DNA of 64,000 nt from NCBI RefSeq assembly GCF_030169785.1, contig NZ_CP125854.1, positions 620,001 to 684,000 of the forward strand. The letters run 5' to 3'. The position numbers and the translations under genes are program-made. Below the pieces are notes generated by a model, which worked only from the letters and a program-made list of their open reading frames with translations, was not told the DNA's origin and made no database searches. This document shows, in pieces, positions 7,510 through 38,429 of this stretch. The stretch comes from Bdellovibrio sp. 22V. Its GTDB lineage: Bacteria > Bdellovibrionota > Bdellovibrionia > Bdellovibrionales > Bdellovibrionaceae. The number at the start of each line of letters is the position of its first letter. The first letter of the stretch is position 1.

Positions 7510-8190
7510 ATGAGTGCACTTTATCGTCTCAAGGCGCTTGAATACTCGTATCTTTGGAACAAGCAACAAGTGCCCGTTCTCAAAGGCATTGACCTTGAAC
7601 TCGAAAAGGGCTGCTTTGCTTGTATTGTCGGGCCCAGCGGCACGGGGAAGACGACACTCTTAAATTTACTCGGTCTTATCGACACGCCTTCCAGCGGTCA
7701 CATCGAATTTTCCGGTGAAGATGTCACACATTTGAATGAGAATGAAAAAGAACAAGTGCGTTTGCACAAAGTCGGTTTTATTTTCCAATCTTTTTACCTA
7801 ATTCCGACTTTGACTGTTCTTGAAAACACGTCTTACTTTTTACCTTCGTTAGGATATTCACATGCAGCGTCCATGAAAACGGCGATGGAGACGTTGGATC
7901 TTCTTGGTTTAGCAGACCATGCGAAGAAAAAACCGCTGGAGCTTTCCGGAGGCCAACGTCAGCGAGTGGCGATTGCCCGCGCGATTGCGAAAAAACCGGA
8001 AGTGGTTTTAGCCGATGAGCCCACGGCGAATCTCGATTCCGTGACAGCGGAAAAGACGATCAATGCTTTTAAAGAGCTGCAAAAAACAGAGAATACCAGT
8101 TTTATTTTCTCGACTCACGATTCGCATCTTGTGAGTTTTGCGAAGTCGGTCTTTCGCATGAAAGACGGTCAGATTGAAGGAAGGGTGTAG
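7510..8190 (+). CDS. ABC transporter ATP-binding protein (LolD/MacB type)
   Basis: A 226-residue cytoplasmic ATPase with Walker A GPSGTGKT (41-48), Q-loop FQSFYLIPTL, signature LSGGQ (145-149), Walker B VVLADE (165-170) and the switch histidine in STHDSH. The IDTPSSGHI and IFQSF segments are typical of the LolD/MacB/FtsE group, which drives type VII (mechanotransmission) ABC systems. AAGGAG precedes the ATG. The permease gene begins two bases after the stop, so the two make one transporter. The substrate cannot be told from sequence; lipoproteins, lipids or small hydrophobic molecules are usual for the group. Confidence 0.95.
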   Translation: MSALYRLKALEYSYLWNKQQVPVLKGIDLELEKGCFACIVGPSGTGKTTLLNLLGLIDTPSSGHIEFSGEDVTHLNENEKEQVRLHKVGFIFQSFYLIPTLTVLENTSYFLPSLGYSHAASMKTAMETLDLLGLADHAKKKPLELSGGQRQRVAIARAIAKKPEVVLADEPTANLDSVTAEKTINAFKELQKTENTSFIFSTHDSHLVSFAKSVFRMKDGQIEGRV

Positions 8191-8192
8191 TC

Positions 8193-9401
8193 ATGTTGGA
8201 TCTTCTAAAAATTGCCTGGCGCAATCTCTTTCGCAATCCTCGTCGCACGTGGGCCAGCCTTTGTACGGTGGCATTGGGCTCTGCCGGTCTTTTGATTTAT
8301 CAAGGTTTTAATACCGGGGTTATGAATCAGTATCGTGAAAACGTCATTCACGGTTACTATGGTTACGGCCAAGTTTTCCCGCAAAATTATTTCGGTAAAG
8401 TGCATGAACAGCCGTGGAAGCTGTGGTTTGAAAACGCCGAAGAAGTGGAGCAACAGATTCGCAGTTCTTCTTCCGTCACACAGGTGTTTCCGCGCGTTTC
8501 GTTTTATTCTTTTATCGTCAAAGGCGGGATCACTTTGGGCGGTAAAGGTGAAGGTGTGATACCGGAACGAGAAAACACTTTCTTCACACAGATGAATTTT
8601 ATCGCAGGTCACGATTTACAGCACGACGATGAAATCATTCTGGGAAAAGGTTTGGCGGAAAGTGTGGATGCCAAAGTCGGCGACACGGTCACGCTGCTGA
8701 CGCAAACGGTGAACGGACAGTTGAACGGTGCCGATCTAAAAGTCGCGGGGATCTTTTTTACGGGAAAGAAAATCATTGATGATTCCTTCTATCGTGTGGA
8801 GTTAAAGCAGGCCCAGGCCTTGCTTGATACGAACAGAATCGAAATGTTTTCTCTTGCGACAAAAGGTGTTGAGGCATGGCCCCAAGTCGAAAAAGACATT
8901 CGTAAGGCCAACTCGTCGCTAGAGGCCGTGCCCTTCGAAATTCTCGACAAGAACTACTATCAGAACTCCGTGGATTTTTTAAATGCGCAATTCGCCTTCA
9001 TCCGCTCGATCATTTTGGTGATTGTCGGCATGGGGATTTTCAACGTGATCTCGGTCGGTCTTTTGGAAAGAGCCGGTGAGGTTGGAGCTTTGCGAGCGAA
9101 CGGCGAAAAGCGCAGTCGTTTGCTAAGAATTCTTTTGATTGAAAACAGTTTGTTGGGAGTCTTAGGCGGAATCCTGGGAATTTGTATCGCGATTTTGATC
9201 GATAAAACTTTGTTGGTAAAAGGAGTGCCGATGCCGCCGGCTCCGGGAATCACAAGACAGTTCTTTGTCTTTTTGGATATTATGCCTCGCCACTACATCC
9301 AAGCTGTGCTTTTGCCGATGCTCGCAACAGTGATCGCGAGTTTGTATCCAACCGTAAAACTTTTAAAGAAGACTATTCCAGAGCTTCTGCGCTCAACATG
9401 A
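8193..9401 (+). CDS. FtsX/LolE/MacB-type ABC transporter permease
   Basis: A 402-residue inner-membrane protein with the type VII layout: one N-terminal helix (about 20-38), a periplasmic domain (about 45-265), then three helices (about 268-290, 315-335 and 365-390). The C-terminal region contains GLLERAGEVGALRANGEKR, the FtsX-family coupling loop. The periplasmic domain would deliver mechanical force to a partner in the periplasm. No membrane-fusion protein gene is adjacent, but the upstream AMIN-like and barrel proteins could be partners, and the LolA-like protein encoded at 14950 could be a carrier. The last two ideas are inference from proximity. Confidence 0.93.
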   Translation: MLDLLKIAWRNLFRNPRRTWASLCTVALGSAGLLIYQGFNTGVMNQYRENVIHGYYGYGQVFPQNYFGKVHEQPWKLWFENAEEVEQQIRSSSSVTQVFPRVSFYSFIVKGGITLGGKGEGVIPERENTFFTQMNFIAGHDLQHDDEIILGKGLAESVDAKVGDTVTLLTQTVNGQLNGADLKVAGIFFTGKKIIDDSFYRVELKQAQALLDTNRIEMFSLATKGVEAWPQVEKDIRKANSSLEAVPFEILDKNYYQNSVDFLNAQFAFIRSIILVIVGMGIFNVISVGLLERAGEVGALRANGEKRSRLLRILLIENSLLGVLGGILGICIAILIDKTLLVKGVPMPPAPGITRQFFVFLDIMPRHYIQAVLLPMLATVIASLYPTVKLLKKTIPELLRST

Positions 9402-9736: not shown

Positions 9737-10597
9737 GTGCCAGTTAAGAGTCTTCATCAGCTTCACCCAATGCACGCCTTTGGCGTTGTGACCAACCTCG
9801 ATACGCCTTTACGAATCCAGCGTTTTGAAAATCGCGTGGAGCCTTTGATTCCTTTTCCGCATAAACATAACTTTTATCATTTGGTTTTTGTCGTTTCCGG
9901 CAAAGGCTGGCACGAGATCGACTTTCAACGTTATCCTATTGAACCGGGCCGTTTCTTTATTATGAAACCGGCGCAAGTGCATGCGTGGGTGGTTGAAAAA
10001 GCCAAAGGTTATGTCATTGAGTTCGAGGAAGACCTGGTTTTTTCGCACACGCCGCACAGTCATAAAATCAGAAATCTTCTTTCGCGGATGCCCGATAGTT
10101 TTAAAGTCAGTGAGAAATGCCTGCGCGACATTCGCGTGCAGTGTGAAAACATGCTTACGGAATACTCAGAACAGAATAACCAATATGATCTGGTGCTCAC
10201 ACTTTCGTTGTTTTTGATTCTTGCGAAAGCCTTCCGCGAGGTCCCGTCGCAGGATCCGTCTCTTCAGCAAAGCTCGCTGACTGATAAATTTCTGCAATTG
10301 ATTGAAGAAAACTATAATAAGCAGCACGACGTCGAATTCTATGCGCGCAAAATGAATATGAGCGCCAAAGCTCTGACGATGAAAGTTTCGCGACGCCTGG
10401 GAAAATCAGCGCGTACCCTGGTGCAAGAACGCTGTTTGCTTGAAGGCAAAAGGCTTTTGGCCTACTCGGATCTTTCCGTGGGTGAAATTGCAGAGACCCT
10501 AGGTTACGAAGACCCTAATTACTTCTCGCGATTTTTTCGAATGAAAACCAAAAAGACGCCGTTGGCTTTTCGCAAAGCCGCGAAGAAAGTTCTTTGA
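9737..10597 (+). CDS. AraC-family transcriptional regulator
   Basis: A 286-residue DNA-binding protein. The N-terminal half has a cupin-type sensor fold (FPHKHNFYHLVFVVSGKGWHEID, split here as HKHNFYHLVFV and GKGWHEID, then IMKPAQVHAW). The C-terminal 100 residues carry two helix-turn-helix motifs, ending with LSVGEIAETLGYEDPNYFSRFFRM, the family signature (key residues GY, YFSR, F). The start is a GTG with AGGAG about ten bases upstream. It is monocistronic and precedes the lipid operon by 223 bp, so it is a candidate regulator of that operon, though the evidence is position alone. The effector is unknown. Confidence 0.92.
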   Translation: MPVKSLHQLHPMHAFGVVTNLDTPLRIQRFENRVEPLIPFPHKHNFYHLVFVVSGKGWHEIDFQRYPIEPGRFFIMKPAQVHAWVVEKAKGYVIEFEEDLVFSHTPHSHKIRNLLSRMPDSFKVSEKCLRDIRVQCENMLTEYSEQNNQYDLVLTLSLFLILAKAFREVPSQDPSLQQSSLTDKFLQLIEENYNKQHDVEFYARKMNMSAKALTMKVSRRLGKSARTLVQERCLLEGKRLLAYSDLSVGEIAETLGYEDPNYFSRFFRMKTKKTPLAFRKAAKKVL

Positions 10598-10820: not shown

Positions 10821-11819
10821 ATGAGAGTGTCCGTTCTTATTAACTCTAAAGCCGGCTCTGTGAATGCAGAGTTGATTGAAGCCAAGGTGCGCGAATCTTT
10901 ATTTCGCTGCGACTTGCGTTTCTGTCGGCCTCAGACACTCACTGAAATGTGTGATTTCCTGCATGGCGAGCGCGCCGCGAAAACCGATTACATTATTATT
11001 TGTGGCGGAGATGGAACGATCAACGTAGCTCTGCAATGTCTTATGAAGTGCCAGGACTCTTCCCATATTCCTCCGATTGCGATCATTCGCTCCGGCACCG
11101 CGAATGACCTTGCCCATGAGATCGGCGTTTCGAAACGTATTGATCAGGCGATCCGAAATATTTTTGAAGGGACTGCAAAATATATCGATGTTATTGAAGT
11201 GGAAGCAGAAGGCGCGAAAGCCTATATGCTGACTAACGGCGGCTTGGGTCTGCCGGCGAAAGCGGCGGAGCTTGCCAATAAGTTCCGTTCACATCTTCAG
11301 AATCTTGCAAACTGTCCTAAATCAGCGAAGGCTTATAAATATCTCGCGCAAAAAAGTTATTACGCTGTGAAACGCATGGGACCGAGCGTTTACTCTTTGA
11401 TGACAGCTGAAGCGATTCGCACGTGGAACCCTGAAGGCTGGGGGCTTGAAGTTTCTATTCCTGGAAAAGTAAATATCGAAACGCAATCTCCAATTGTTTT
11501 AGTTAATAATCAACAGACGATCGGTTCGAGCTTCTTGCCGGCGCCTTATACTTCGAACTCTGACGGAACGGTCAATCTGCTTTTGTCAGAGACGAAGAAT
11601 ATTCCGGAGCACGCTTTGGCGGCATTGCATATTCGCCGTGGCAGTGTTGAAAAATTCCCGGCGTTCAAGTCCTTTGAACTGAAAGAATTCAAACTTCGCA
11701 GCGTCAACCCTGAACGTAAACTGACGTTCTTTGGGGACGGCGAAATCCTGCATAAAAACGTTCAAGAGCTTTCTATCCGCTGCATTCACGGCGGTTTACC
11801 TGTCATGGTTCGTTCCTAA
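10821..11819 (+). CDS. diacylglycerol kinase-family lipid kinase
   Basis: The 332-residue product belongs to the DAGK catalytic/YegS superfamily, which phosphorylates diacylglycerol, sphingoid bases or related lipids at the inner membrane face. Visible hallmarks are the nucleotide-binding GGDGT (62-66) and SGTANDLA (91-98), plus a C-terminal strand with FFGDGE. I chose the ATG at 10821 (MRVSVLINSKAGSVN), where the fold begins, with GGAG upstream; a GTG at 10770 would add 17 residues of no homology. It is the first gene of the six-gene operon; its stop overlaps the next start as TAATG. With BtaA-like and AAR-like enzymes in the same operon, the substrate is probably an unusual lipid (inference). 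Confidence 0.9.
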   Translation: MRVSVLINSKAGSVNAELIEAKVRESLFRCDLRFCRPQTLTEMCDFLHGERAAKTDYIIICGGDGTINVALQCLMKCQDSSHIPPIAIIRSGTANDLAHEIGVSKRIDQAIRNIFEGTAKYIDVIEVEAEGAKAYMLTNGGLGLPAKAAELANKFRSHLQNLANCPKSAKAYKYLAQKSYYAVKRMGPSVYSLMTAEAIRTWNPEGWGLEVSIPGKVNIETQSPIVLVNNQQTIGSSFLPAPYTSNSDGTVNLLLSETKNIPEHALAALHIRRGSVEKFPAFKSFELKEFKLRSVNPERKLTFFGDGEILHKNVQELSIRCIHGGLPVMVRS

Positions 11820-12841
11820 TGAAACCGCGAATCCTTGTAACCGGAGGCACCGGTTTTCTTGGCAAGCATGTTGTTCCCTTGCTTCGTGAAAAATTCGAAG
11901 TCGATGTGCTTTCGCGCTCTGGAAAAACAGAAGTGCAAGGGGATTTATCCGCGTGGAACGGTGACTTGGATCTGGCGTCTCTAAAGAATAAAAATTATGC
12001 GCTTCTTCTGCACATGGCGGGACTTTACGATTTAAAAGCCAACAAGGTAGACTGCAACCAACACAATATTGCAGCGATGGGAACGGCATTGAAAATCGCC
12101 GGTCTTTTGAACATTCCGTTCTTTGTGAACACCAGTACTGTCGCGGCGGCGGTGAACTCCAGTCTTCCGACGGTCAAACCTTTCGATTTGAATTTCTCGA
12201 AACCGTTTCCGGATGCTTATTCAGAATCAAAAGCCATGGGTGAGCAGGTTTTGCAAAACTGGCCGCAAGACACCGTTTCGGGTCGGGTGAATCTGCGCTT
12301 AGGAATTTTAGTAGGAGACACGAAAAAGGGAACGATCGAAAGAGTCGACGGCATTTATCATGCGGCAGAGGGGTTTGCGAAAATTCGCACGTTGATTCAG
12401 GCTCTGCCAACCGCGCTGCCTTTGCCGGGTCATGAAAAAGTTCGTATGCCGATCGTCCCCGTTGATAAGGCGGCGGAAGCCATCGTCAAGTTTTGCGAAT
12501 GGACTTTACAGACGAAGCCTCAAGGGTATCACAGCTTTCACGTGTCCCCGACGCGAGGATTGAGTGCCAAAGAACTCTACGAATCCACTTTGAAACGTCT
12601 TGCGATTCCTCATAATGGGATTGCTTTGATCGGTGCTATTTCTGATACGGTCGTTATGAAAGCATCGAAGTATCTTGTTCAGTTTCCTGAAGAAGAGATT
12701 TATTATTTACTGAACCTGCCTCGCTACGAAACAACGGCGACGAAAGAAATTCTTGGCGATAATTGGTGTCCCGAATTTAAAGATTATGAACTGACGTTCT
12801 GGAGCGGCTATGAAGCATTCCTATCGAATCGCAGAAATTAG
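11819..12841 (+). CDS. NAD-dependent epimerase/extended SDR
   Basis: A 340-residue extended short-chain dehydrogenase with N-terminal TGGTGFLG (8-15) and a catalytic YSESK at 134-138, preceded by a plausible catalytic serine in VNTSTVAA. Extended SDRs epimerise nucleotide sugars or reduce carbonyls, including beta-hydroxy or keto-lipid intermediates. The substrate cannot be told. Its ATG overlaps the lipid kinase stop with no ribosome site of its own, so translation is coupled. Its 3' end overlaps the AAR-like gene by 32 bp, giving strong linkage to lipid metabolism. Confidence 0.9.
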   Translation: MKPRILVTGGTGFLGKHVVPLLREKFEVDVLSRSGKTEVQGDLSAWNGDLDLASLKNKNYALLLHMAGLYDLKANKVDCNQHNIAAMGTALKIAGLLNIPFFVNTSTVAAAVNSSLPTVKPFDLNFSKPFPDAYSESKAMGEQVLQNWPQDTVSGRVNLRLGILVGDTKKGTIERVDGIYHAAEGFAKIRTLIQALPTALPLPGHEKVRMPIVPVDKAAEAIVKFCEWTLQTKPQGYHSFHVSPTRGLSAKELYESTLKRLAIPHNGIALIGAISDTVVMKASKYLVQFPEEEIYYLLNLPRYETTATKEILGDNWCPEFKDYELTFWSGYEAFLSNRRN

Positions 12842-14939
12842 TTTTGGTCGCCCTTATTGGGATGCCGCTTACGAATTTGAATTCGCTGGAAATCACTTTG
12901 AGGTTCAGCGTTTTAGTGCGAACTTTTCCGTGGAATCGGTTCAGCGATATATCGAAACGCTTCGCAATCAGGTGGATGCTTTTGCTTTAACGAGTTTGCC
13001 TCCCGTGATTCGCCTTGATCAAAAGTCTTACGTGCATCGTCAGTATCTTGATATTATGGCGACACCTTCGCCGGTGCCTCTTTGCGACGGAACAGGCCTG
13101 CGCGAAATTGCCAACATCAATTCCTTGGTCAAAAATATTGAATCTGGCGTGATTCAGCCGGATCAAGGTGTGTTCTTTCCTTCGGCCGTGTTTTCCACAG
13201 AGCTTGAAGAGTACATTCGTCATCGCTATCGTAAATCGGTTTATTTGGGTGACGCTTACTCTTTATTGGGCGTGCCCTGGTTGATTCAGCCTTTTCCGGG
13301 ATTGATGACGCTTTCGAAGCTGGCGTTGAATGTCGCGAACTTCAAGGATCTGCGCAAGAACACTCCGTTGGCTGAAACGAAATTGCAAAAGATGAGTCGC
13401 TCGTCGCTGGCTGCGCAGGTTGAAAACATCCAGTATGTGTTTTGTGATCTGCCTTTTCTTCTTCTGTTTGATCAGGCGACAGAGTTTGTGCGCGGAAAAG
13501 ATTTGGTGATTTGGTCGTCGCATCCGCAAATGGAAAAAGAGGCGATGAAGTATGCTCCACGCAGTATCATCAATCTCTTTCCGGAAGATTATCGCAAAAT
13601 TTCTCCTTACATGAATTACTCCGTATTGGATGCGACTTTGCGTTTAAGTCATAACCGCACGGCCGCTTTGTCATTGGAAGAATGGGAAAAAATTCTGACG
13701 GAAGATACAGAGATTCGTCAGGTGACGCGGAAGTACGTTAAGACCCGCAAAACATCGACGCAGGCGAAGATTTCGCAGGGGATGAACTCGGTTCGCAATA
13801 AAATATTCAAGCAACCGGAACCTGATTTTGCTTTCGTGATTCACGCCTTGTCGCACCACGATTTCACGCGTATTCCCGGGATGTCGGTGATCAAGCACAT
13901 GCCGAAGCAGTGGAACGATCCCTTTGATCGCATGATTGCGAATGTGCCGCCATTTGTGCATGGTCATGTGAAACACATCATCAGCTCTGAAACAGGCGAA
14001 GAAATCAACGGGATTATTTACGCTTTGCCGGCGACACCAAAAGTTTTGAAGCAAGCAGATCCTGAAGTGATTTACCGTAAGATTGAAGGCATCTGTTACG
14101 ATGCCGCCAATCGCGGGGCGAAGATGATCGGCCTTGGCGCTTACACAAAGATCGTTGGCGACCAAGGAATCACGATCAATCAAAACAGTCCGATTCCGGT
14201 AACGACAGGAAACAGTTTAAGTGCTTCGGCCACTTTGTGGGCCTTAAACGATGTTGTTCGGAAAATGCGCTTGGTGCAGCAGGATGCCGACACGGGCCGG
14301 GTGAATGGCATGGCCATGGTGATTGGCGCGACGGGCTCTATCGGACAGGTGTCAGCGAAACTCTTGGCGATTGTTTTTAAAAAACTTTGCCTGGTGGCTC
14401 CGCGGATGAATCGTTTGCAAGAACTTAAACAGGAAATCGAAAAGATGGCTCCGCATTGTGAAATCACAATTTCGACGGATGCCAACGAACTGGCGTCGGA
14501 TGCCGACGTTTTAGTGACCGCAACCTCGGCTTTCGACCATAAGATCGTTGATGTGATGAAGTTGAAACCGGGCGCGGTGGTGTGTGATTGTTCTCGACCG
14601 TTGGATTTTGACATCGAAGACGCAAAAAGACGTCCCGACGTTTTGATTATTGAGTCCGGGGAAGTGGTTTTACCGGGACCGGTGGAAATGACATGCGATA
14701 TCGGACTTCCGGGTAATACAGTGTATGCTTGTCTCGCCGAGACAGCTCTTTTAACATTAGAAAAACGGTATGAGCCTTTCACTATGGGCCGCGACATTGA
14801 GTGGAACAAGGTGAAGCAGGTTTACAAAATGGCGAAACGCCATGGAGTGCAATTGGCAGAGATCCAAGGCCACGCCGGAATAATCACGGATAAGGAAATC
14901 GAGCTCACAAGACAGCTGGCATTATCACGAAGAAAATAG
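12810..14939 (+). CDS. long-chain acyl-ACP reductase-like (AAR) enzyme with an unknown N-terminal domain
   Basis: A 709-residue protein. Residues from about 340 to the end align by eye with cyanobacterial acyl-ACP reductase, which turns acyl-ACP into fatty aldehyde. Shared features are GLGAYT before a TTGN segment, the dinucleotide site GATGSIG (506-512), and VYACLAETALL, whose cysteine at 641 matches the acyl-thioester-forming cysteine of AAR (MFACFAEAMLL), followed by MGRDIEWNKV as in AAR. The N-terminal 330 residues are not in cyanobacterial AAR (about 340 residues) and I do not recognise them; they may bind substrate or reduce the product further. GGAG lies five bases before the ATG, and the gene overlaps the SDR gene by 32 bp. 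A fatty aldehyde product for ether, wax or other lipids is inferred. Confidence 0.8.
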   Translation: MKHSYRIAEISFGRPYWDAAYEFEFAGNHFEVQRFSANFSVESVQRYIETLRNQVDAFALTSLPPVIRLDQKSYVHRQYLDIMATPSPVPLCDGTGLREIANINSLVKNIESGVIQPDQGVFFPSAVFSTELEEYIRHRYRKSVYLGDAYSLLGVPWLIQPFPGLMTLSKLALNVANFKDLRKNTPLAETKLQKMSRSSLAAQVENIQYVFCDLPFLLLFDQATEFVRGKDLVIWSSHPQMEKEAMKYAPRSIINLFPEDYRKISPYMNYSVLDATLRLSHNRTAALSLEEWEKILTEDTEIRQVTRKYVKTRKTSTQAKISQGMNSVRNKIFKQPEPDFAFVIHALSHHDFTRIPGMSVIKHMPKQWNDPFDRMIANVPPFVHGHVKHIISSETGEEINGIIYALPATPKVLKQADPEVIYRKIEGICYDAANRGAKMIGLGAYTKIVGDQGITINQNSPIPVTTGNSLSASATLWALNDVVRKMRLVQQDADTGRVNGMAMVIGATGSIGQVSAKLLAIVFKKLCLVAPRMNRLQELKQEIEKMAPHCEITISTDANELASDADVLVTATSAFDHKIVDVMKLKPGAVVCDCSRPLDFDIEDAKRRPDVLIIESGEVVLPGPVEMTCDIGLPGNTVYACLAETALLTLEKRYEPFTMGRDIEWNKVKQVYKMAKRHGVQLAEIQGHAGIITDKEIELTRQLALSRRK

Positions 14940-14949
14940 GGGAGACATC

Positions 14950-15648
14950 ATGAAGATTCTTTGGGCCTTGAGTGCGTTATTGTTCACCTTGCAAGCTGGA
15001 GCCGCAGACGATCCTGCGGAGTGGGTCAAGAAAGCCGATAATATCCGCAATCCTGCGGAATCCTACGAAATGAAAATCAAAGTCGAAACCTCAGAGAACA
15101 CGTCGGTCTTTCAAGTGTATTTGAAAGGCCAAGATAAAACTCTGATCGTGACCAAAGAGCCGGCTCGCGACAAGGGCCGCAATATGCTGATGCTTGACCG
15201 TGACTTCCACGCGTACGTACCAAATTTGAAAAGATCCATGCGTTTGTCATTGGCGCAAAAACTTTCCGGGCAGGTCGCCAACGGAGATATTTCGCGCACG
15301 CGTTGGTACGGCGATTACTCTGTTGAGCTGGAAAAAGAAACCGGCGACGAGGTCCAGTTGTTTTTGAAGGGCAAGAAGGACAATCTGACTTACGCGGCGA
15401 TTCGCTTGTGGTTAAAGAAGGGCAGTTATCAACCGTTGCGTGCCGAGTATCTGGGCCTCAATGGAAAAACGGTTTTAAAGCGCGCGAGTTTTGAAGATTA
15501 TAAAAACATTTCGGGCGCGGTCCGTCCTACGACTCTGAAAATCGAAGACACCAATAAACAAGTCAGTCACATTCGCATTCTTTCCATGGGAAAGAAAGAT
15601 TATCCTGACTCGTTCTTCACCGTTCGCAATATGGAAAGCATGAAATAG
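14950..15648 (+). CDS. LolA-like outer-membrane lipoprotein-sorting family protein
   Basis: A 232-residue periplasmic protein with a signal peptide ending at AGA (about residue 18). The central SRTRWYGDYSVE region, LMLDRDFHAYVPNLKR and the C-terminal DSFFTVRNMESM fit the LolA-like family often found beside RND or FtsX-type exporters. LolA-fold proteins carry lipids or lipoproteins across the periplasm in a hydrophobic cavity. GGGGAG lies before the ATG, 10 bp after the AAR-like gene. The next gene overlaps it as TAGTG. Its place in a lipid operon suggests it carries the operon's product (inference). Confidence 0.85.
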   Translation: MKILWALSALLFTLQAGAADDPAEWVKKADNIRNPAESYEMKIKVETSENTSVFQVYLKGQDKTLIVTKEPARDKGRNMLMLDRDFHAYVPNLKRSMRLSLAQKLSGQVANGDISRTRWYGDYSVELEKETGDEVQLFLKGKKDNLTYAAIRLWLKKGSYQPLRAEYLGLNGKTVLKRASFEDYKNISGAVRPTTLKIEDTNKQVSHIRILSMGKKDYPDSFFTVRNMESMK

Positions 15649-16715
15649 TGAAACGCCTTTTTTTCTTGGCTCTACTTGTGTTCTCCTCTTTGGCCAAGGC
15701 GGATCTGGTTTTGGCGCCAAGGTATGAATACATTCAAGGCCAAGAAGAAGAGTTGGCGAATCGTTTTATTCTTAAAGGCAAATTAAACGCGACGGCCGGA
15801 CCCTTTGGAATTTACGCTGAAGGTTTCGGTGAATACGAAATGAACGAAGACCAGGCTTTTATCCGCCGCTCTCCCTCGCGCGGTTATCTGCAAGAAGCCT
15901 ACATGGAGTTCAAGCTAGAATCTTTTTTTGTGCGTGTCGGGCGCCAGGCTTTGCGGTGGAGCGAAAGCTGGACCTTGCCGTCTTTGGATATTTGGACGGG
16001 ACGAAGATGGAATCGTTTATTCTTCGATCCGTTTGAAGACCAGCTGACTCATTCCACTGGAGCTTCTTTCACCTATGCCACGGAAGTATTTTCTTTAGAG
16101 TTAGTCGGCATCGGCGAACTTGCAGAGAATGATTTTCCTCAGCCCATTCCTGAAGTCGAGAATGAAGAAAACACCAGTTTCGGCGGACGTGCAAAATGGA
16201 ATGTCGGTGGGTTTGCGTTTTCTTTTTTATCGGCGCAGGTCTTGAAAAAGTACTATTATGGCGGGACTGCGAACTACGCTTTTGATCATGCTGTCCCCAA
16301 AGTTGAAGTCGGATATAGCAATGACACCGGCAACGAAATTCCCGGTATCAAGAAAGAGCGTCTGTTTGGTTTGATCGGGGTGGATCTTTTTTTAGGAAAC
16401 TGGGTGATCCTCCCGCAGCTGAGTTATTTTGAAACTGGCGACATCACGGGGAATGAAACCCAGACTTCGTTTTATCTGACGGCGCAGTGGAACCCAGACC
16501 GCCATGATCTGCATTTCCAGCTTTATCAAAATCCTAAAGCGGAGGATTCCTTCCTCAGTGTGACCTACGGATACAATCTTACGGACTATTTTACAGCCGC
16601 GATTTTCGCGCAAAACTATGAAGGTAATGACGGCCTTTATAAAATATATGAAGATATCACGGGGGGCTTCGTCGCGGGGCTTCGTTTGCAACTGACAGGA
16701 AATCTTCCCTTTTAA
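15648..16715 (+). CDS. outer-membrane beta-barrel protein paired with the LolA-like protein
   Basis: A 355-residue protein starting at GTG inside the TAGTG overlap with the previous stop. It has a signal peptide (1-18, ending AKA) and many amphipathic strands such as FFVRVGRQALRWSESW, and it ends at a C-terminal phenylalanine (GNLPF). The RVGRQ-x-x-RWGES-like segment recalls DUF1302-type barrels that partner with LolA-like proteins and exporters. It would be the outer-membrane acceptor or pore for the product of the operon. Function is inferred from family and position. Confidence 0.82.
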   Translation: MKRLFFLALLVFSSLAKADLVLAPRYEYIQGQEEELANRFILKGKLNATAGPFGIYAEGFGEYEMNEDQAFIRRSPSRGYLQEAYMEFKLESFFVRVGRQALRWSESWTLPSLDIWTGRRWNRLFFDPFEDQLTHSTGASFTYATEVFSLELVGIGELAENDFPQPIPEVENEENTSFGGRAKWNVGGFAFSFLSAQVLKKYYYGGTANYAFDHAVPKVEVGYSNDTGNEIPGIKKERLFGLIGVDLFLGNWVILPQLSYFETGDITGNETQTSFYLTAQWNPDRHDLHFQLYQNPKAEDSFLSVTYGYNLTDYFTAAIFAQNYEGNDGLYKIYEDITGGFVAGLRLQLTGNLPF

Positions 16716-16724
16716 GGAGCGTTT

Positions 16725-17822
16725 GTGGCGAAAGAATATTTCTCTGATCTGAACTACACTTTGTCCAATGAAGATACACGCATCGAATTTGAATTGCTTG
16801 CGGATGACGTAGAGCGCGTGTTCAGTATTGCAGGTTCGGGCGCCCGTTGTTTGCCTTTGCTGGCGAAAAATCCCAAACATCTCGACGTCATTGATATGTC
16901 TGTGTCGCAACTGTATCTGTGCGAGTTGCGCTTACAGGCGATGAAAACGTTGTCGTATGAAGAGTATCTGTTTTTTATGGGGTATCGCGGTGGTTTGCAA
17001 GTAGGAACGGATTCGGGGGACGACCGAGAAGTTCTTTTCCATCGTTTGATTTTATCCAAAGAAGCGAAAGCGTATTGGGTCGAGCGCGTGCAGGGCTGGA
17101 AACCGCATGGTTTTATTTTATTAGGGAAGTGGGAATCGCATTTTCAAAAGCTCGGCTATGTTTTCCGGGACATCTTGCAGTGTGATTTCAGTAAAATCTT
17201 TTCCGCACAGTCTTTGGACGAACAGATCGAATTGTATGAACAATACTGGCCGAAGATTCGCTGGAACAGTTTTATCAAAATTGCCGCCAGCGAGTACGTC
17301 TTTAACAAGTACCTTTATAAAGGTCACTTCAGCGGACGTTCCGAAGCGAAAACAGAAGAGCGCGGACCTTCGCAATTTATCATGGAAGAGTTCGATCGTA
17401 TTTTTAGAACGCAGCTGGTGCGCAAAAACTATTTCATGCAGATTCTTTTCTTAGGCCGCATCGCCTATGAAGAAGGTTTGCCTTTGGAAGCGCACCAACA
17501 CATTGTCGATGCCGTGAAAAAATCAAAAACCGAAATTCATTACTTGCATGGCAACTTGTTAGAACATTTACCTCGCCACGCTTACAACTTTATTTCTTTG
17601 TCCGACACGATTTCCTATTTGGATGCGAACGACGCCAATCAGATCTTGCAAAAGCTTTCGCCGGAAACAAAAGCGGGCAGCAAAATGGTGATTCGTTCCT
17701 TCATGCGCGCACCGACGGCCATCGATACAACGGGCTGGAAAGCTTTGGTCGACAAAGACAAATGGGCCCACCAAAAAGACGGCACCGGCGTTTACCAGTT
17801 CCACATCTTTGTGAAGAACTAG
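16725..17822 (+). CDS. DUF3419 protein, BtaA-like S-adenosylmethionine:diacylglycerol aminocarboxypropyltransferase
   Basis: A 365-residue protein of the BtaA/DUF3419 family. BtaA transfers the 3-amino-3-carboxypropyl group of S-adenosylmethionine to diacylglycerol, the first step of betaine-lipid synthesis. The start region (SDLNYTLSNEDTRIEFELL) and the nucleotide-binding segment FSIAGSGARCLPLLA followed by VIDMSVSQLYL are characteristic. The start is GTG with AAGGAG upstream, nine bases after the barrel gene. No BtaB-type N-methyltransferase gene is visible nearby, so the product may be an unmethylated homoserine lipid or something else. It ends the operon. Confidence 0.85.
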   Translation: MAKEYFSDLNYTLSNEDTRIEFELLADDVERVFSIAGSGARCLPLLAKNPKHLDVIDMSVSQLYLCELRLQAMKTLSYEEYLFFMGYRGGLQVGTDSGDDREVLFHRLILSKEAKAYWVERVQGWKPHGFILLGKWESHFQKLGYVFRDILQCDFSKIFSAQSLDEQIELYEQYWPKIRWNSFIKIAASEYVFNKYLYKGHFSGRSEAKTEERGPSQFIMEEFDRIFRTQLVRKNYFMQILFLGRIAYEEGLPLEAHQHIVDAVKKSKTEIHYLHGNLLEHLPRHAYNFISLSDTISYLDANDANQILQKLSPETKAGSKMVIRSFMRAPTAIDTTGWKALVDKDKWAHQKDGTGVYQFHIFVKN

Positions 17823-18140: not shown

Positions 18141-18704
18141 ATGAAATTGTGGGAATTGAGGAAATTCAACATTTTAGCTTTGTTGTTTATGGTGGCAGGA
18201 TGCTCCGACGCGAATCCTACCGTCAGTATTCTTCGTTCCATTGAAGGCTTTGACTTTAATCCCACAAATGTCGTGACTGCGAGCATGAACAATGTGCCCT
18301 TGCAGGCAACGTGTTCTTCGTTCGTGGGCGCTGTTGAAATGAGTTTCGACGGCGGCACAACATGGGTGACTCCGACGTCGTATGACCCTGCCGTGGCTTC
18401 CCAATGTGCGAATGGCAGTTTTCAAATTTCTCTTTCAGACAGCAAGGCCCCTTGGAGTTCGATGACGTTTACGAACGGCCAGATGGTGACCGTGAAGTTC
18501 CGCGCACAACCTCGTATCGGCAACTGGATTTATCGTAATGTCACAATCAAATACTCTCCTTCTACAACGATTTCACAAGAGATCTTAGCAGGGGCGAAGA
18601 CACAAACCGGCACCAACATGGTTTTGAAGGGCCGCGTTCGTGCGCAAGAGCAGCATGTCGCTTCCGGCGGTGGCTTTGTGATTAAGGGAAGGATTGCGCA
18701 ATGA
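18141..18704 (+). CDS. lipoprotein encoded with the S74 fibre
   Basis: A 187-residue protein with a type II signal peptide: residues 1-20, lipobox MVAG and then the lipidated cysteine at 21. The mature part is beta-rich with two further cysteines and a segment SFDGGTTWVTP like immunoglobulin-type sugar-binding or fibre-associated domains. It ends in a Gly-rich tail. The ribosome site is weak (AAAG). Its stop overlaps the fibre gene start (ATGA at 18701), so the two are translated together. A role in anchoring or exporting the fibre is inferred. The family is unknown to me. Confidence 0.82.
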   Translation: MKLWELRKFNILALLFMVAGCSDANPTVSILRSIEGFDFNPTNVVTASMNNVPLQATCSSFVGAVEMSFDGGTTWVTPTSYDPAVASQCANGSFQISLSDSKAPWSSMTFTNGQMVTVKFRAQPRIGNWIYRNVTIKYSPSTTISQEILAGAKTQTGTNMVLKGRVRAQEQHVASGGGFVIKGRIAQ

Positions 18705-21691
18705 AGTTCTTCCTGATGGTCTTACTTTTTTTAATCAGCATTTCTGCCATGGCGGTATCGCCCGGGTCTCTGTTTACTTATGAAGGTATTTTGACGGATG
18801 CGACGGGTACACCGATCACGACCACGCAAACAGTCACCTTTCAAGTGATCTATCCTCCCTCTTGTGTGGTGTATGAAGAGACGCAGAATATTGCGCCGGG
18901 AACACAAGGTGAATTCAGTGCCACGATTGGTGCGGGTTCACGCACAGACTCGACGGGAAATACGGCGGATCGTATCTTTGCGGCCAGTGGAAGTGTGAAC
19001 TGTCAGGGCGGCACGACAGCGGCCGTCTCTGGATTTACTTCCCGTTCATTGCACATTCGCGTGGGTGCTACGGATCTTGCTCCCGATGTCACGATCAATA
19101 ACATTCCTTTTGCGATCAATGCGCAAAGACTCGCGGATAAGACTTCAAGTGATTTCGTGCAAAACACGGGATCGGTGACTCAGGCGTTAATGAATTCTAT
19201 CGCGGGAATTTTTGCGACAGCTCCTGCCGACAATCAAGTGTTGATGGGCAATAGCGGAACCTATGTTCCCGGAAATATCACCGCGGGTTCGGGCATTAAT
19301 ATCACTTCAGGAGCAGGTAATATCACGATCTCCGCGACGGGAAGTGGCGGCAGCGTCACCAATGTAACGTCAACAGCGCCGTTGAGTGTTGCGACCGGAA
19401 CAACGACTCCGCATATTACTCTTGCGAAGGCGACGTCGACAACAGACGGATACTTGGCGGCAACAGACTTTGCTGTTTTTTCGGATAAACTTTCTTCGTC
19501 GCTGGCACCGGGAAATATCTTCGTAGGAAACGGCAGCAGTGTGGCGAATTCTGTTCCGGTGTCTGGTGATGCGACGTTGGCTCCGAGTGGAGCGTTGACG
19601 CTTTCTGCGATCGGAACGGCAGGCACTTATTATAAAGTCACGACCGATACGAAAGGCCGCGTGACTGCGGGAAGTACAAGTTTGGTTGCTGGAGATATTC
19701 CTTCTCTTGATTTTGCGACGAAGATCACTGGCCTGCCAACGACGTTAAGTGGTTACGGAATCACAGACGGTGTGAAAAATCTGGGATCAACTCTGGGGAT
19801 CAAGTCGGATGTGGATTCAGCGAAAGGCGCGGCGGGAACTGCGGGTCGTCTTTTCATTGCGACCGACACTCTGAAAATTTATCGAGATAACGGCTCTGCC
19901 TGGGATACATTGGGCGGTGGCGGAGGCGGAACGGGCACTGTCACAAACATCGCAACAGGTACGGGCTTAGTCGGCGGACCTATTACGAGCACAGGCACAA
20001 TTTCATTGGCGAACACCTCAGTGACAGCGGGTACATACGGTTCCGCAACGCAAGTTCCTACCTTTACCGTTGATTCACAAGGCCGTTTGACAGCGGCATC
20101 CACGGTAACCATTGGCGGAGTCACTCCCGGAGGAACAGCCGGTGGAGATTTGTCAGGAGTCTATCCGAATCCAAGTGTCGTGAAAATTCAAGGACGGCCT
20201 GTCAGTGCAACGCCCCCTTCAGGTGGACATGTTTTGAAATATAACGGAACAGATTGGACACCTTCATTTGTGAATGTCGGTTCGGAGACCACAGGTGTTT
20301 TGAATGTCGCTAACGGTGGTACGGGAACGGGAACTTTCGTTGCAAACCGTTTGGTTGCTTCCGACGGAACAGGCTCGACGTTGACGACCTTTACTTGCGG
20401 CATTGGCAATATGATCACCTTCGACGGTGCGGGTATGATGGGTTGTACACCTTACGATACGGCAGGTCTTGTTCTGAACGGGGGTAATAGTCCCGCATCG
20501 CCACTGACTATTGGAACCAACAACGCGCAAGCTGTTCATGTTGAAGTGAACGGAACTAACAAAATGTCGATTCTTCCGAACGGAAACGTCGGTATTGGCA
20601 TCACCTCTCCATCGGCTCGCCTGGAAGTGGCCACTGACGGAGCGACAAGTTCGATCGTCAATCGAAGTTATATGTCGGATGTAAATGCCGCAGGACTTTT
20701 CTTCGGATACAAAGCTCGTGGAACCGCGGGCTCGCCGCAACATCCCTTGGCCAATGACCGTTTGGCGGTATTTGGCGGCGCCAACGGAGTGAGCACGAAC
20801 ACCTATGCGGGTGTGAGTATTTTAGCGTCAGAAAATCACACGGCTTCAGCGCAGGGAATGAAGATGGATTTCAATGTCGTTGCAAATGGAACCGTCGGAC
20901 AGACGACGGCGATGACTTTGGATTCCTCCGGTAAGGTGGGTATTGGAACGACGTCTCCGCTTTTCCGTTTATCCGTCGAAGATCCTGTTGCAATTGCTCC
21001 CGTGCAGGTAGCCTCTGCAAACGCGTCCGCTTCCGGTTTGAGAATCCTCAATACCGTGGGCGGTAATATGACGGCGTGGACGCTGGCTCAGTCGAGCAAT
21101 ACTACGAGCACTTCATGGGGTTCGTCGAATGCCTTCACGATCACGAATCAAAACAGTTTGCCGGATGCTCAGCCTAAACTGACAATCGAGTCAGACGGTA
21201 ACGTCGGTATCGGCGTGAGTGATCCAACGTCTCGCTTGCACGTCAACGGAAGCGGCTATTTTACGGGGTCGGTGACACAATCTTCTGACCGAAGATTCAA
21301 GGATCATATTCAAACCTTGCCGTTGGCATTGCAGAAAGTTTTGCAAATGCGTGGTGTTTCGTACACTTGGCGCCATGACGAGTATCCAGAAAGACAGTTC
21401 CAGCAAGGATCTGACATTGGTTTAATCGCGCAAGAAGTAGAAGAAGTATATCCTGAAGCGGTCACGACGGATGCAAAAGGTTATAAAGGAATCGCCTACA
21501 ATAAATTGATTGCTCCGCTGATTGAGTCGACGAAATCACTCTATGGTATGTGCCATTCGCTTGAGCGTAAGATCGCTTCCGTGGAAGCGGACAACGCTGC
21601 AAAAGAAGCTCGCATCCTGCGTCTCGAAAAAGAGAATGAAGAGCTGAAAAAAGATCTCGAATTGATTAAAAAGAAACTCGGTCTTCAATAA
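18701..21691 (+). CDS. surface fibre with C-terminal S74 intramolecular chaperone (mosaic adhesive trimer-like)
   Basis: A 996-residue secreted protein with a signal peptide (1-18, ending AMA). An N-terminal beta domain (about 20-150) is followed by long Gly/Ser/Thr-rich beta stretches with TAGTYGSATQVPTFTVDSQG-type phage tail-fibre repeats and three copies of xGxVGIGxxxPxxRLxV. The end is an S74 chaperone from residue 861 (SSDRRFKDHI, with the autocleavage Ser-Asp at 862-863) and a heptad coiled coil (about 945-990). S74 domains fold and trimerise tail fibres, then cut themselves off. In Bdellovibrio, proteins of this design (the MAT family) lie at the invasive pole and recognise prey. That role here is inferred. 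Confidence 0.9.
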   Translation: MKFFLMVLLFLISISAMAVSPGSLFTYEGILTDATGTPITTTQTVTFQVIYPPSCVVYEETQNIAPGTQGEFSATIGAGSRTDSTGNTADRIFAASGSVNCQGGTTAAVSGFTSRSLHIRVGATDLAPDVTINNIPFAINAQRLADKTSSDFVQNTGSVTQALMNSIAGIFATAPADNQVLMGNSGTYVPGNITAGSGINITSGAGNITISATGSGGSVTNVTSTAPLSVATGTTTPHITLAKATSTTDGYLAATDFAVFSDKLSSSLAPGNIFVGNGSSVANSVPVSGDATLAPSGALTLSAIGTAGTYYKVTTDTKGRVTAGSTSLVAGDIPSLDFATKITGLPTTLSGYGITDGVKNLGSTLGIKSDVDSAKGAAGTAGRLFIATDTLKIYRDNGSAWDTLGGGGGGTGTVTNIATGTGLVGGPITSTGTISLANTSVTAGTYGSATQVPTFTVDSQGRLTAASTVTIGGVTPGGTAGGDLSGVYPNPSVVKIQGRPVSATPPSGGHVLKYNGTDWTPSFVNVGSETTGVLNVANGGTGTGTFVANRLVASDGTGSTLTTFTCGIGNMITFDGAGMMGCTPYDTAGLVLNGGNSPASPLTIGTNNAQAVHVEVNGTNKMSILPNGNVGIGITSPSARLEVATDGATSSIVNRSYMSDVNAAGLFFGYKARGTAGSPQHPLANDRLAVFGGANGVSTNTYAGVSILASENHTASAQGMKMDFNVVANGTVGQTTAMTLDSSGKVGIGTTSPLFRLSVEDPVAIAPVQVASANASASGLRILNTVGGNMTAWTLAQSSNTTSTSWGSSNAFTITNQNSLPDAQPKLTIESDGNVGIGVSDPTSRLHVNGSGYFTGSVTQSSDRRFKDHIQTLPLALQKVLQMRGVSYTWRHDEYPERQFQQGSDIGLIAQEVEEVYPEAVTTDAKGYKGIAYNKLIAPLIESTKSLYGMCHSLERKIASVEADNAAKEARILRLEKENEELKKDLELIKKKLGLQ

Positions 21692-21798: not shown

Positions 21799-22995
21799 AT
21801 GTTAAAAACACTCTTCGCTATCGCCATTGCATTTTCGTTTGCGTCGGCATCCGATGCCAAATCGTCGAATACAAAAAGTTCGAGCAGCGTGAACCGCTAC
21901 CAAAGAGGGCTTCTTAAGAAAATCTCTTGTCATTTTTCCGGTACACGCACTTCCACTGGAGACAGCATCGGTTCCGTGGATTTCGTAGATCCTGAAAAAA
22001 CCGTCTGTGATCCCCTCTCGAACACCTCAAGCCCGTCGCCTGAAAACGGTCTTTTAGGAAAATTAATTCTTAAAACTCCGGAAATGGGCAACAAAGTTTC
22101 TAGCGTGATGGACTACTATAATAAGGGACAAAAAATCGACAAAGACTTGTTCTTTGCCGACGTGAATGTTCCTACACGCTCTTTCACTCAAGGGTTCTCT
22201 ACTTTATCGGGTGAGGTGTTGGTTGGTGCCGATGGGAATAAATTGATCGAGAATTTCGCGATTGAGTACACATCGACATTGAAGCTCTCTGAGAATGATA
22301 AGGAAGGGGAGTACGAGATTGCGGTCCTTTCCGACGACGGGGCTCGTATGTTTATCAAAGAAGGTGATAAGTGGAATGAGCTCATTAACAATGACGGGAA
22401 TCATCCGACACGCATGGGCTGTCCTTATCGCACAATCACAATGACAAAAAACTCTGAAGTTCCTGTGAAACTTCTTTATTACCAAGGACCGCGCTATCAT
22501 ATCGCGAACGTCTTGATATGGAAGCATCATAAAAAAGCACACACTTGGAAAGAGCCTTCACGTCATTCGCTGTGCGGGATTGCAAGCAATCAATACTTCT
22601 ATGATTCAAAGAACGGAAAGAAAAAACCGGCAATTCATTTCCTTGAAGCGACAGGGTGGCGAACCATCGCCGCTGCTAACTTCAAAATGCCAGAACAAAA
22701 GCCAAACCCTTGTTCACAAGAACCTTTGGTGATTAATGACTTCCGCGTTGTTTCAGCTCAAGCGCCAAACGCCACGGTAGCATGGACAACGAATTTACCG
22801 TCTTCAACTCAGCTGCGCATTCTCAACGTCTACACAGGCGAAGAAATGCTCACAGAGGTTGACGCGAACCTCGTAAACGAACACACCGTCGAACTCAGCG
22901 GCCTCGTCCACGGCATCTACTACCAAGTCCAAGCCATCTCCAAAGACGCCGAAGGCCGAGAAACTCGCAGCGCCCTCATAAACGTATTGCCATAA
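21799..22995 (+). CDS. secreted PA14/fibronectin-like domain protein
   Basis: A 398-residue protein with a signal peptide (about 1-20, ending SDA). Residues 115-235 resemble a PA14 domain, with FAIEYTSTLKL and YEIAVLSDDGARMFI (DDG at 179-181), a fold that binds carbohydrate. The last 90 residues resemble a fibronectin type III module (VAWTTNLPSSTQLRI, HTVELSGLVHGIYYQVQAI). It contains several cysteines that could form disulfides in the periplasm or outside. The pair of domains suggests a surface adhesin or glycan-binding protein. It has its own promoter region of about 107 bp after the fibre gene and a terminator at 23025. Confidence 0.78.
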   Translation: MLKTLFAIAIAFSFASASDAKSSNTKSSSSVNRYQRGLLKKISCHFSGTRTSTGDSIGSVDFVDPEKTVCDPLSNTSSPSPENGLLGKLILKTPEMGNKVSSVMDYYNKGQKIDKDLFFADVNVPTRSFTQGFSTLSGEVLVGADGNKLIENFAIEYTSTLKLSENDKEGEYEIAVLSDDGARMFIKEGDKWNELINNDGNHPTRMGCPYRTITMTKNSEVPVKLLYYQGPRYHIANVLIWKHHKKAHTWKEPSRHSLCGIASNQYFYDSKNGKKKPAIHFLEATGWRTIAAANFKMPEQKPNPCSQEPLVINDFRVVSAQAPNATVAWTTNLPSSTQLRILNVYTGEEMLTEVDANLVNEHTVELSGLVHGIYYQVQAISKDAEGRETRSALINVLP

Positions 22996-23172: not shown

Positions 23173-23288
23173 AGTTTGGTAGCTGGTCCGAAGTGAGGCC
23201 TCTGCCAAGCGTGACGCGTTCGCCCGCAGGGCGATGGCAGCAGAGCTCAAGGACGAGCGTGCCTCACGAAGCGACGAGCTACCAAACT
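23173..23288. repeat. 116-nt imperfect palindrome between convergent genes
   Basis: The outer arms AGTTTGGTAGCT (23173-23184) and AGCTACCAAACT (23277-23288) are perfect complements; GTGAGGC and GCCTCAC continue the pairing inside. The centre is a CGCCC-GCA-GGGCG hairpin (23221-23233). The right end overlaps the stop codon of the minus-strand PEP-synthase-like gene. Its layout resembles the 5190-5313 element, but the sequence differs. Confidence 0.7.
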
Positions 23289-25974: not shown

Positions 25975-25976
25975 GT

Positions 25977-26840
25977 TTAGGTCCCCAGTACGTAAATAAG
26001 AAGGATGTAGTGAAGAAGGAGATAAACTCCCGAGATGTTTCTAAAGAAACGCGCTGATTGTTCTGTTCGCTTAAGAAGATAAAAATGGCTGGCAATAATA
26101 TAAAGAACCAACGCTGCAACAAGTACAACGTGCGGTTTGAAGTAACAGACAAGTCCGACACCTAAAATAGCTTGGCTGAGGGAAAGATACAAAGCGCCGT
26201 TGCAGCCGAAAATGTTTGAATAACTCGGGACATGCGGCCGTTCTTCCGGAGGCGCATAAGTTTTGCGGGCAAACTCGAAAAGGTTGAAGAAAGCCCAGTT
26301 CATCAAAAAGAACAAGACGTGTTGCAAAGAGAGGTTTGCGACGGATTCTCCGGTCATAGCAATGGCGGCACTCAATCCTAAAAGGCAGCTGACAAAAGTG
26401 TGAGTCACAGCATACGTCGTTAGATGAGGACGAAGGAGATCGCCGATAAAAAACTCTTCATACATCAAAAGGCTGTATGCGATCGCTACCGCGTGAACGA
26501 AGAAGGCGTTCAAGCCCAAAATTGAAATCGCCACAAGTTCAAAAATGATAAGCAGAAGCAAAGCTTTCTTAACCTGAGGAACAGTAAGAACTCCGCGAGC
26601 CAAAGGGCGGGTTGGATTCACTTTAAGATCGACCTCATAATCTTTGATCTCATCGAAAAGACGCATGCGCAAGAAGAAGGAGAGCAGAACACCGAACGCG
26701 ATTGCAAAACGAGTCCAACTCCAAGAATAACCTTGAGTTGTGGTCAGAAAATACCCGTTGGCCCATGTGAATAATAAAATCATGGGCACGTAAGAAGCGG
26801 GACTAAATCTTTCGCGAATCAGAGTCCACCATTTAACCAA
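25977..26840 (-). CDS. UbiA-family prenyltransferase
   Basis: A 287-residue integral membrane protein with about eight to nine helices. The first Asp-rich motif of UbiA enzymes is FDEIKDYEVD (62-71), followed by NPTRPLARG. The second canonical Asp motif is replaced by EFARKTYAPPEERP then SYSNIFG, a variant found in a subgroup of UbiA-like proteins. UbiA enzymes join a polyprenyl diphosphate to an aromatic or other acceptor at the membrane. The gene overlaps the hydrolase-ligase fusion gene by 8 bp and precedes the PEP-synthase-like gene by 2 bp. No quinone genes are nearby, so ubiquinone or menaquinone synthesis is unlikely. Confidence 0.87.
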   Translation of the reverse strand: MVKWWTLIRERFSPASYVPMILLFTWANGYFLTTTQGYSWSWTRFAIAFGVLLSFFLRMRLFDEIKDYEVDLKVNPTRPLARGVLTVPQVKKALLLLIIFELVAISILGLNAFFVHAVAIAYSLLMYEEFFIGDLLRPHLTTYAVTHTFVSCLLGLSAAIAMTGESVANLSLQHVLFFLMNWAFFNLFEFARKTYAPPEERPHVPSYSNIFGCNGALYLSLSQAILGVGLVCYFKPHVVLVAALVLYIIASHFYLLKRTEQSARFFRNISGVYLLLHYILLIYVLGT

Positions 26841-38292: not shown

Positions 38293-38429
38293 ATAAAGGA
38301 GTATCGGCTCTGCCGCAAAGAGCTTAATCCTCGACTTTCGACCTTATTTTCCTCCGTTGTCTCAATGTGAGGCTCCAAGTTGCCGATATGTCCATTGATA
38401 TATCTGATTTTTTGTTAGCCGAGGTATCT

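Follow-up and report, generated by a model that had tools for sequence, protein, structure and literature searches.

We analysed a window of 64,000 nucleotides from the closed, 3.6 Mb genome of Bdellovibrio sp. 22V (contig NZ_CP125854.1, positions 620,001 to 684,000, numbered here from 1) and characterized a set of genes for lipid-type enzymes and a probable export route that is centred on positions 10821-17822. This stretch holds six intact open reading frames, all on the plus strand and called here A to F. A reading made from the sequence alone had described them as six tightly packed genes that would make or modify a lipid and carry it to the outer membrane, and the packing was found as described, with overlaps of at most 32 bp (A/B, 1 bp; B/C, 32 bp; D/E, 1 bp) and gaps of at most 10 bp (C to D, 10 bp; E to F, 9 bp). 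The six genes are a real and linked set but not the whole unit, as that reading had missed an ATP-binding cassette (ABC) exporter at 7510-9401 and a minus-strand operon, P-U-X-Y, at 23287-29981. Both belong to the same system as A to F, which in the window has about 12 genes, divided among three transcription units. The genes and the codon of one predicted catalytic cysteine are as follows.

7510-8190, plus strand: T, ATPase of the ABC exporter, LolD-like, under the LolD cut-off
8193-9401, plus strand: M, permease of the ABC exporter, LolC/E-like, of the FtsX/MacB fold
10821-11819, plus strand: A, lipid kinase of the DAGK/YegS type
11819-12841, plus strand: B, extended short-chain dehydrogenase/reductase (SDR) of the NAD_binding_4, 3beta-hydroxysteroid dehydrogenase (3beta-HSD) and OleD-like type
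12810-14939, plus strand: C, two-domain protein, its C-terminal half a predicted acyl-thioester reductase
14730-14732, plus strand: codon of Cys641 in C
14950-15648, plus strand: D, LolA-like periplasmic carrier
15648-16715, plus strand: E, predicted outer-membrane beta-barrel of about 16 strands
16725-17822, plus strand: F, DUF3419 (BtaA-like) protein, presumed S-adenosylmethionine (SAM)-dependent 3-amino-3-carboxypropyl transferase
23287-25974, minus strand: P, phosphotransferase of the phosphoenolpyruvate (PEP) synthase superfamily with the domain order of PigC, RedH and rifampin phosphotransferase
25977-26840, minus strand: U, UbiA-family membrane transferase
26833-29244, minus strand: X, serine-hydrolase domain joined to an acyl-AMP ligase (PRK09274/OleC-like)
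29241-29981, minus strand: Y, formyltransferase, replaced in other genomes by a GNAT-like protein (N)
29978-31759, minus strand: Z, FadD-like acyl-CoA ligase adjoining Y, of doubtful membership

Two neighbours were considered as members and rejected. The AraC regulator at 9737-10597 stands at this place in only one relative (G024), and Z (AMP-binding, 4.3e-74) is not a core gene because its linkage is restricted to the genus Bdellovibrio, where it adjoins cassettes of both the formyltransferase and the GNAT-like type.

Phyletic profiles were then established over 141 genomes of the order, the thresholds for orthologs being placed at gaps in the score lists. Full-length orthologs of C were present in 29 of the 141 genomes, in two families, and orthologs of A and P were present in exactly the same 29 genomes. 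An ortholog of F was found in 27 of these 29, one of the permease M in 28 and one of D in 26, while a single genome that is 54% complete (G027) has M and D without C. The Fisher values for these co-occurrences, which are inflated by the kinship of the genomes, ranged from about 1e-24 to 1e-31. In the genus Bdellovibrio, C and F were both present in 16 of 24 genomes and both absent from the rest, in which the other genes gave at best weak matches; strain kdesi, named B. bacteriovorus, has the locus (L092). The permease was retained in G081 and G083 even though it lies on another contig.

Comparison of gene order, the check that the sequence-only reading had itself named, showed more than a chance grouping: away from the close relatives, in other genera and in another family, A-B-C-D-E-F are found again in this order with 30-60% protein identity, whereas the flanking genes (starting at 6203, 6718, 18141, 18701 and 21799) accompany them only within the genus. 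In relatives, T and M adjoin A or are inserted between C and D. F also has homologs in several additional families within the phylum, and 20 of these regions were read. Three of them (L224, L225 and L236) carry A B C F Y X U P T M D as one compact cluster on one strand, most of the others carry large subsets of the gene set, and the named loci in Bacteriovoracaceae, Halobacteriovoraceae and Oligoflexus agree with it. Because compact single clusters occur in distant families, the arrangement in the window is most readily explained as a single unit that has been divided into three, and the existence of one co-inherited system is well supported.

A remote cluster was seen in four other genomes (L074-L077, in G059, G060, G061 and G063), with a divergent PigE-like reductase (24-27% identity), and a PEP-synthase-like gene (25-27%); three of the four also have a DUF3419-like gene. 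The cluster is possibly a sister pathway in the same family.

The gene labels proposed from the sequence held for A, B, D and F, by Pfam or profile matches, and for E by a structural model, but the label of acyl-ACP (acyl carrier protein) reductase given to C applied to its C-terminal half only. Residues 340-698 (approximately) match the N-domain of PigE (2.4e-53) and acyl-ACP reductase (AAR, 1.6e-16), and residues 1-330 form a domain of unknown function that is conserved in the alignment of orthologs. In HMMER alignments, which included the AAR C294S entry 6jzz, Cys641 was aligned with the catalytic Cys294 of AAR and the conserved Cys296 of PigE. The motif of this cysteine and the NADPH motif GATGSIG were each present in 39 of 39 orthologs of C. 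The model of C superimposed on the AAR crystal structure 6jzu with a Z score of 34 (2.8 Å over 323 residues), and the reductase half accounted for the matches listed in the structural search. C is predicted, from its cysteine, its Rossmann domain and its overall fold, to act as an acyl-thioester reductase. Its nearest characterised relative is PigE, which reduces a thioester to an aldehyde; the role of C294 in AAR and C296 in PigE has been described (PMC8341465). Profile searches gave no match to an aminotransferase domain in C. The C-terminal half shares its fold, NADPH motif and catalytic cysteine with cyanobacterial AAR; compared with AAR and with bacterial enzymes of fatty aldehydes and wax esters, however, C carries about 330 further residues as a conserved N-terminal domain, and its cluster has neither an aldehyde-deformylating oxygenase nor a wax synthase.

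Outside Bdellovibrionota, homologs of C (44-47% identity in the reductase half) adjoin genes named by eye as an iron-containing alcohol dehydrogenase (Fe-ADH)-like dehydrogenase and a wax ester synthase/diacylglycerol acyltransferase (WS/DGAT)-like acyltransferase, which is consistent with fatty-aldehyde chemistry. These are proteobacterial loci (L107, L110 and L124-L155) in which the homolog of C, two-domain where checked, lies beside the Fe-ADH-like gene; in the Betaproteobacteria among them it is adjoined by the wax-ester-synthase-like acyltransferase (both again named by eye). They are possibly a bacterial route to fatty alcohols or wax esters.

The minus-strand operon was connected to the system through genome G035, where a PPDK-type protein, a UbiA protein and an AMP ligase lie between C and F. 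Used as a query, this PPDK-type protein gave orthologs in the same 29 genomes of the order, including the gene at 23287-25974 on the minus strand of the window. P carries PPDK_N at residues 14-314 and a C-terminal PEP-utilizers domain at 818-887, and the domain search found no PEP-binding C domain after the His swivel domain, so that P is not a PEP synthase. Its architecture of an ATP domain, a long middle part and a C-terminal phospho-His swivel is that of PigC, RedH and rifampin phosphotransferase, and its scores were higher against RedH (388 bits) and PigC (374 bits) than against PEP synthase (295-299 bits), with 351 bits against rifampin phosphotransferase and 1345 bits against NF004881, a family annotated as PEP synthase. 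The phospho-His motif SH(S/A/T)A(I/V)(V/L)AR was present in 44 of 46 orthologs.

U matches UbiA (1.6e-11), and an Asp-rich motif of the DEIKDYEVD type was found in 35 of its 37 orthologs. X matches Abhydrolase_6 and AMP-binding (1.7e-47), PRK09274 (2e-110) and the OleC models (about 1e-65 to 1e-62). The OleC-like ligase X and the OleD/3beta-HSD-like SDR B are shared with the olefin (Ole) pathway, and X, B and the formyltransferase Y together also resemble the lipstatin pathway. Of the genes identified in the cluster, whether in the window or in relatives, none encodes an OleA-type thiolase, the locus being what was covered. X was rejected as an OleBC fusion since the nucleophile elbow of its hydrolase domain, GHSWG, contains a serine and OleA is not in the cluster; the nucleophile of OleB is an aspartate.

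Y matches Formyl_trans_N (1.6e-12) and carries the motif NIHHGLLPDQRG. The order P-U-X-Y or P-U-X-N was unbroken wherever the stretch was long enough. Where the cassette was visible, Y and N were mutually exclusive, with about 24 genomes for each and none with both, some of the stretches scored ending at contig or fetch borders. Pfam assigned N to GNAT in L114 (8.4e-12) and, with a weak match, in L097 (0.0016). In the Bdellovibrio genome G024, A to F are close to those of the window (F, 85% identity) but the cassette is the other one (P, 43%). Formyltransferases and GNAT proteins both commonly acylate amines, and the amine of the aminocarboxypropyl group that F would install would be the only one made by an enzyme of the cluster; we therefore propose an N-capped amine. 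The replacement of Y by N thus suggests that the product bears a capped amine.

Among the lipid-type enzymes, A matches DAGK_cat (1.3e-20) and YegS_C in Pfam, with the catalytic motif DGE in 37 of 37 orthologs and the nucleotide loop GGDGTxN in 32 of 37. B matches NAD_binding_4/Epimerase (NAD_binding_4, 1.1e-14), PRK07201 (1.3e-28) and OleD-type models (4e-6 to 1e-4). F matches DUF3419 at 1e-59 over profile positions 3-384 of 385, and the glycine motif GSGAR was present in 33 of 36 orthologs. The label of BtaA-like transferase given to F is thus sound as to family but does not imply a betaine lipid, as DUF3419 relatives on plasmids lie in sets of another type. One of these, in Rhizobium (L239, 3004-4077), lies with MBL-fold, 'CoF synthetase' and oxidoreductase genes, and another, in Deefgea (L240, 5992-7074), with SpeD-like and iron-enzyme genes; these neighbourhoods look like other small-molecule-type gene sets, and no BtaB-like methyltransferase is named next to either.

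The carrier and the barrel proposed as the export route were both found, but the inner-membrane pump, for which the set has an ABC exporter of the Lol type, had been omitted. T matches ABC_tran (6.3e-34) and scored 211 bits with the LolD model, below its cut-off of 308, and M matches FtsX (5.7e-17) and scored 90 bits with the LolCE model, below its cut-off of 362. D matches LolA_like (PF17131, 2e-33) and not classical LolA, and its sequence has a hydrophobic N-terminal segment. E gave no Pfam match. Its AlphaFold2 model (pLDDT 82) has a signal-like helix and about 16 beta strands and matches outer-membrane porins and AlgE in Foldseek (E values of about 1e-9 to 6e-11, TM scores of about 0.6), which leads us to regard E as a probable outer-membrane barrel. 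The export genes of the locus thus resemble the Lol lipoprotein pathway (LolCDE-LolA-LolB) in having a LolD-like ATPase, a LolC/E-like permease and a carrier of the LolA fold, but differ from it in that the ATPase and permease are below the cut-offs of those families, there is one permease, a beta-barrel takes the place of the LolB lipoprotein and the genes are linked to small-molecule enzymes.

The reading that we favour, with about even confidence, is that these roughly 12 co-inherited genes direct the synthesis of a lipophilic amino-metabolite, with a membrane amino-lipid as the likeliest candidate, and its export to the outer membrane. The gene families, their conserved catalytic motifs, the co-inheritance and the physical linkage are shown here; for the substrates, the order of the steps, the product and the cargo of the exporter, we infer the following scheme. 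X would adenylate a fatty or other carboxylic acid, C would convert an acyl thioester to an aldehyde by means of Cys641 and NAD(P)H, and B would reduce this aldehyde or a related carbonyl. F would move 3-amino-3-carboxypropyl from SAM onto the lipid, giving an amine and a carboxylate, and Y would formylate that amine, which the GNAT-like enzyme would acylate instead in many relatives. A and P may act on hydroxyl or carbonyl groups by phosphorylating or activating them, and U, as an intramembrane UbiA-type transferase, may couple the lipid chain with the headgroup. The product would be an aminocarboxypropyl-bearing, N-formylated or N-acylated lipid made via a fatty aldehyde; T and M would extract it from the inner membrane, D would ferry it through the periplasm and E would receive it or expose it at the surface, so that the lipid would reside in the outer membrane.

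Besides the kinship behind the Fisher values, several points weigh against this proposal. In G035, which retains A, B, C, F and P, orthologs of D and of the ABC exporter are lacking, and D, E and the ABC genes were not found near the cluster. In several loci of the Bacteriovoracaceae type, the stretches read contain no export genes. Allylic diphosphates are the usual substrates of UbiA enzymes, and a source of prenyl diphosphate for U is absent from the cluster. F is distant from named lipid enzymes, and P could by analogy with PigC activate an aldehyde for condensation instead of phosphorylating a lipid.

That last role of P belongs to the main rival, a condensation pathway like those of prodiginines and tambjamines, which we judge rather unlikely. 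C would then make a long-chain aldehyde that P, like PigC or TamQ, would condense with an amine or a carbon nucleophile in an ATP-dependent manner, F, U, A and Y or N would tailor the product, and the Lol-type system would export an antibiotic, pigment or signal that is secreted or stays bound to the membrane. The absence of the PEP-binding domain from P, its scores against RedH and PigC and the closeness of the reductase half of C to PigE all fit this pathway; the tambjamine cluster also has an AMP ligase, a thioester reductase-aminotransferase (in the series TamH/TamQ/TamA), TamQ and a two-permease ABC transporter (PMC6667630), and P450 and MBL-fold genes are added to the locus in some relatives. 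However, P is also similar to rifampin phosphotransferase and scores far higher with its own family model, C has no aminotransferase domain and the pyrrole enzymes are absent from the locus, which adds a lipid kinase, UbiA, DUF3419, a formyltransferase or GNAT-like protein, a LolA-like carrier and a barrel. Of these additions, the carrier, the barrel and the lipid kinase indicate a lipid.

A variant of betaine-lipid synthesis of the diacylglyceryl-trimethylhomoserine (DGTS) type is improbable. In such a pathway F would make diacylglyceryl-homoserine from diacylglycerol, A would set the balance of diacylglycerol and phosphatidate, and the other proteins would modify or export the lipid. F does belong with BtaA in DUF3419, nearly the full profile being matched, and A is DAGK-like, but no BtaB-type N-methyltransferase was present in the cluster of the window or in any layout seen among relatives, the locus being what was covered. 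Moreover, about 10 further genes, among them the AMP ligase, UbiA, the thioester reductase, the PEP-synthase-like enzyme and the formyltransferase, are superfluous for the DGTS route, and the plasmid relatives in Rhizobium and Deefgea sit among genes of another type. A plain DGTS operon was rejected because of the missing BtaB-like gene and the excess of enzymes. It is equally improbable that T/M, D and E form a Lol-type module of their own, which serves lipoproteins or other cargo and does no more than lie beside the biosynthetic genes, for although D-like and M-like paralogs lie near each other elsewhere (for example in G048, G127 and G135) and G035 has the synthesis genes without D and the ABC exporter, the distribution of D and of the permease over the 141 genomes follows that of the biosynthetic genes (26 and 28 of 29), the incomplete G027 having both without C, and the permease is retained even when unlinked.

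The favoured amino-lipid reading can be made more specific, and this we propose tentatively, with less confidence than the general form: the system would make a new class of outer-membrane amino-lipids typical of many predatory Bdellovibrionota, with a fatty-aldehyde-derived chain, a homoserine-type group donated by SAM and an N-formyl or N-acyl cap that varies among lineages, and with a dedicated ABC-LolA-barrel route of the Lol type that serves a lipid and not lipoproteins. Each of the gene families is known. The statement of the sequence-only reading that it was aware of no described pathway with its gene set agrees with our search, as no description of the set of about 12 genes was found in the open-access literature, to which the search was confined, subscription journals being outside its scope. 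The same literature yielded no paper on Bdellovibrio and betaine lipids, nor one on a LolA-like protein with an ABC transporter, and the combination as a dedicated synthesis-and-export set was not found described there. The clusters named in the text of an antiSMASH survey of Bdellovibrionota are of the non-ribosomal peptide, polyketide, ribosomally synthesised and post-translationally modified peptide (RiPP) and saccharide types, and PMC7529429 cites a 2011 paper in Lipids on unusual membrane lipids of predators.

Other genes of the window were also noted. Between the two operons, 18701-21691 encodes a fibre-like protein of 996 aa that bears a Peptidase_S74 self-chaperone at its C terminus (5.8e-16). 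Its counterpart in the same position in close relatives diverges fast, mostly with 37-48% identity as against more than 75% for its neighbours, and together these features suggest a surface fibre or adhesin. Adjoining the fibre gene, 21799-22995 encodes an exported-looking protein of 398 aa with a PA14 domain (5.9e-7). Three similar-looking outer-membrane-like proteins with no Pfam match above the cut-off are encoded within 7 kb at 35056-36234, 38367-39515 and 40559-41701.

Bdellovibrio and its relatives attach to and enter other bacteria, and the chemistry of their envelope is thinly known. Some 12 co-inherited genes whose proteins would make a metabolite of the cell surface or a membrane, carried by 16 of the 24 Bdellovibrio genomes sampled and by distant families of the phylum and absent as a block from others, offer a testable genetic handle on it. 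The exchange of the formyltransferase for a GNAT-like protein, even between close Bdellovibrio species, suggests that the product is diversifying. Should a lipid be the cargo of the exporter, this would be a Lol-type route for something other than lipoproteins.

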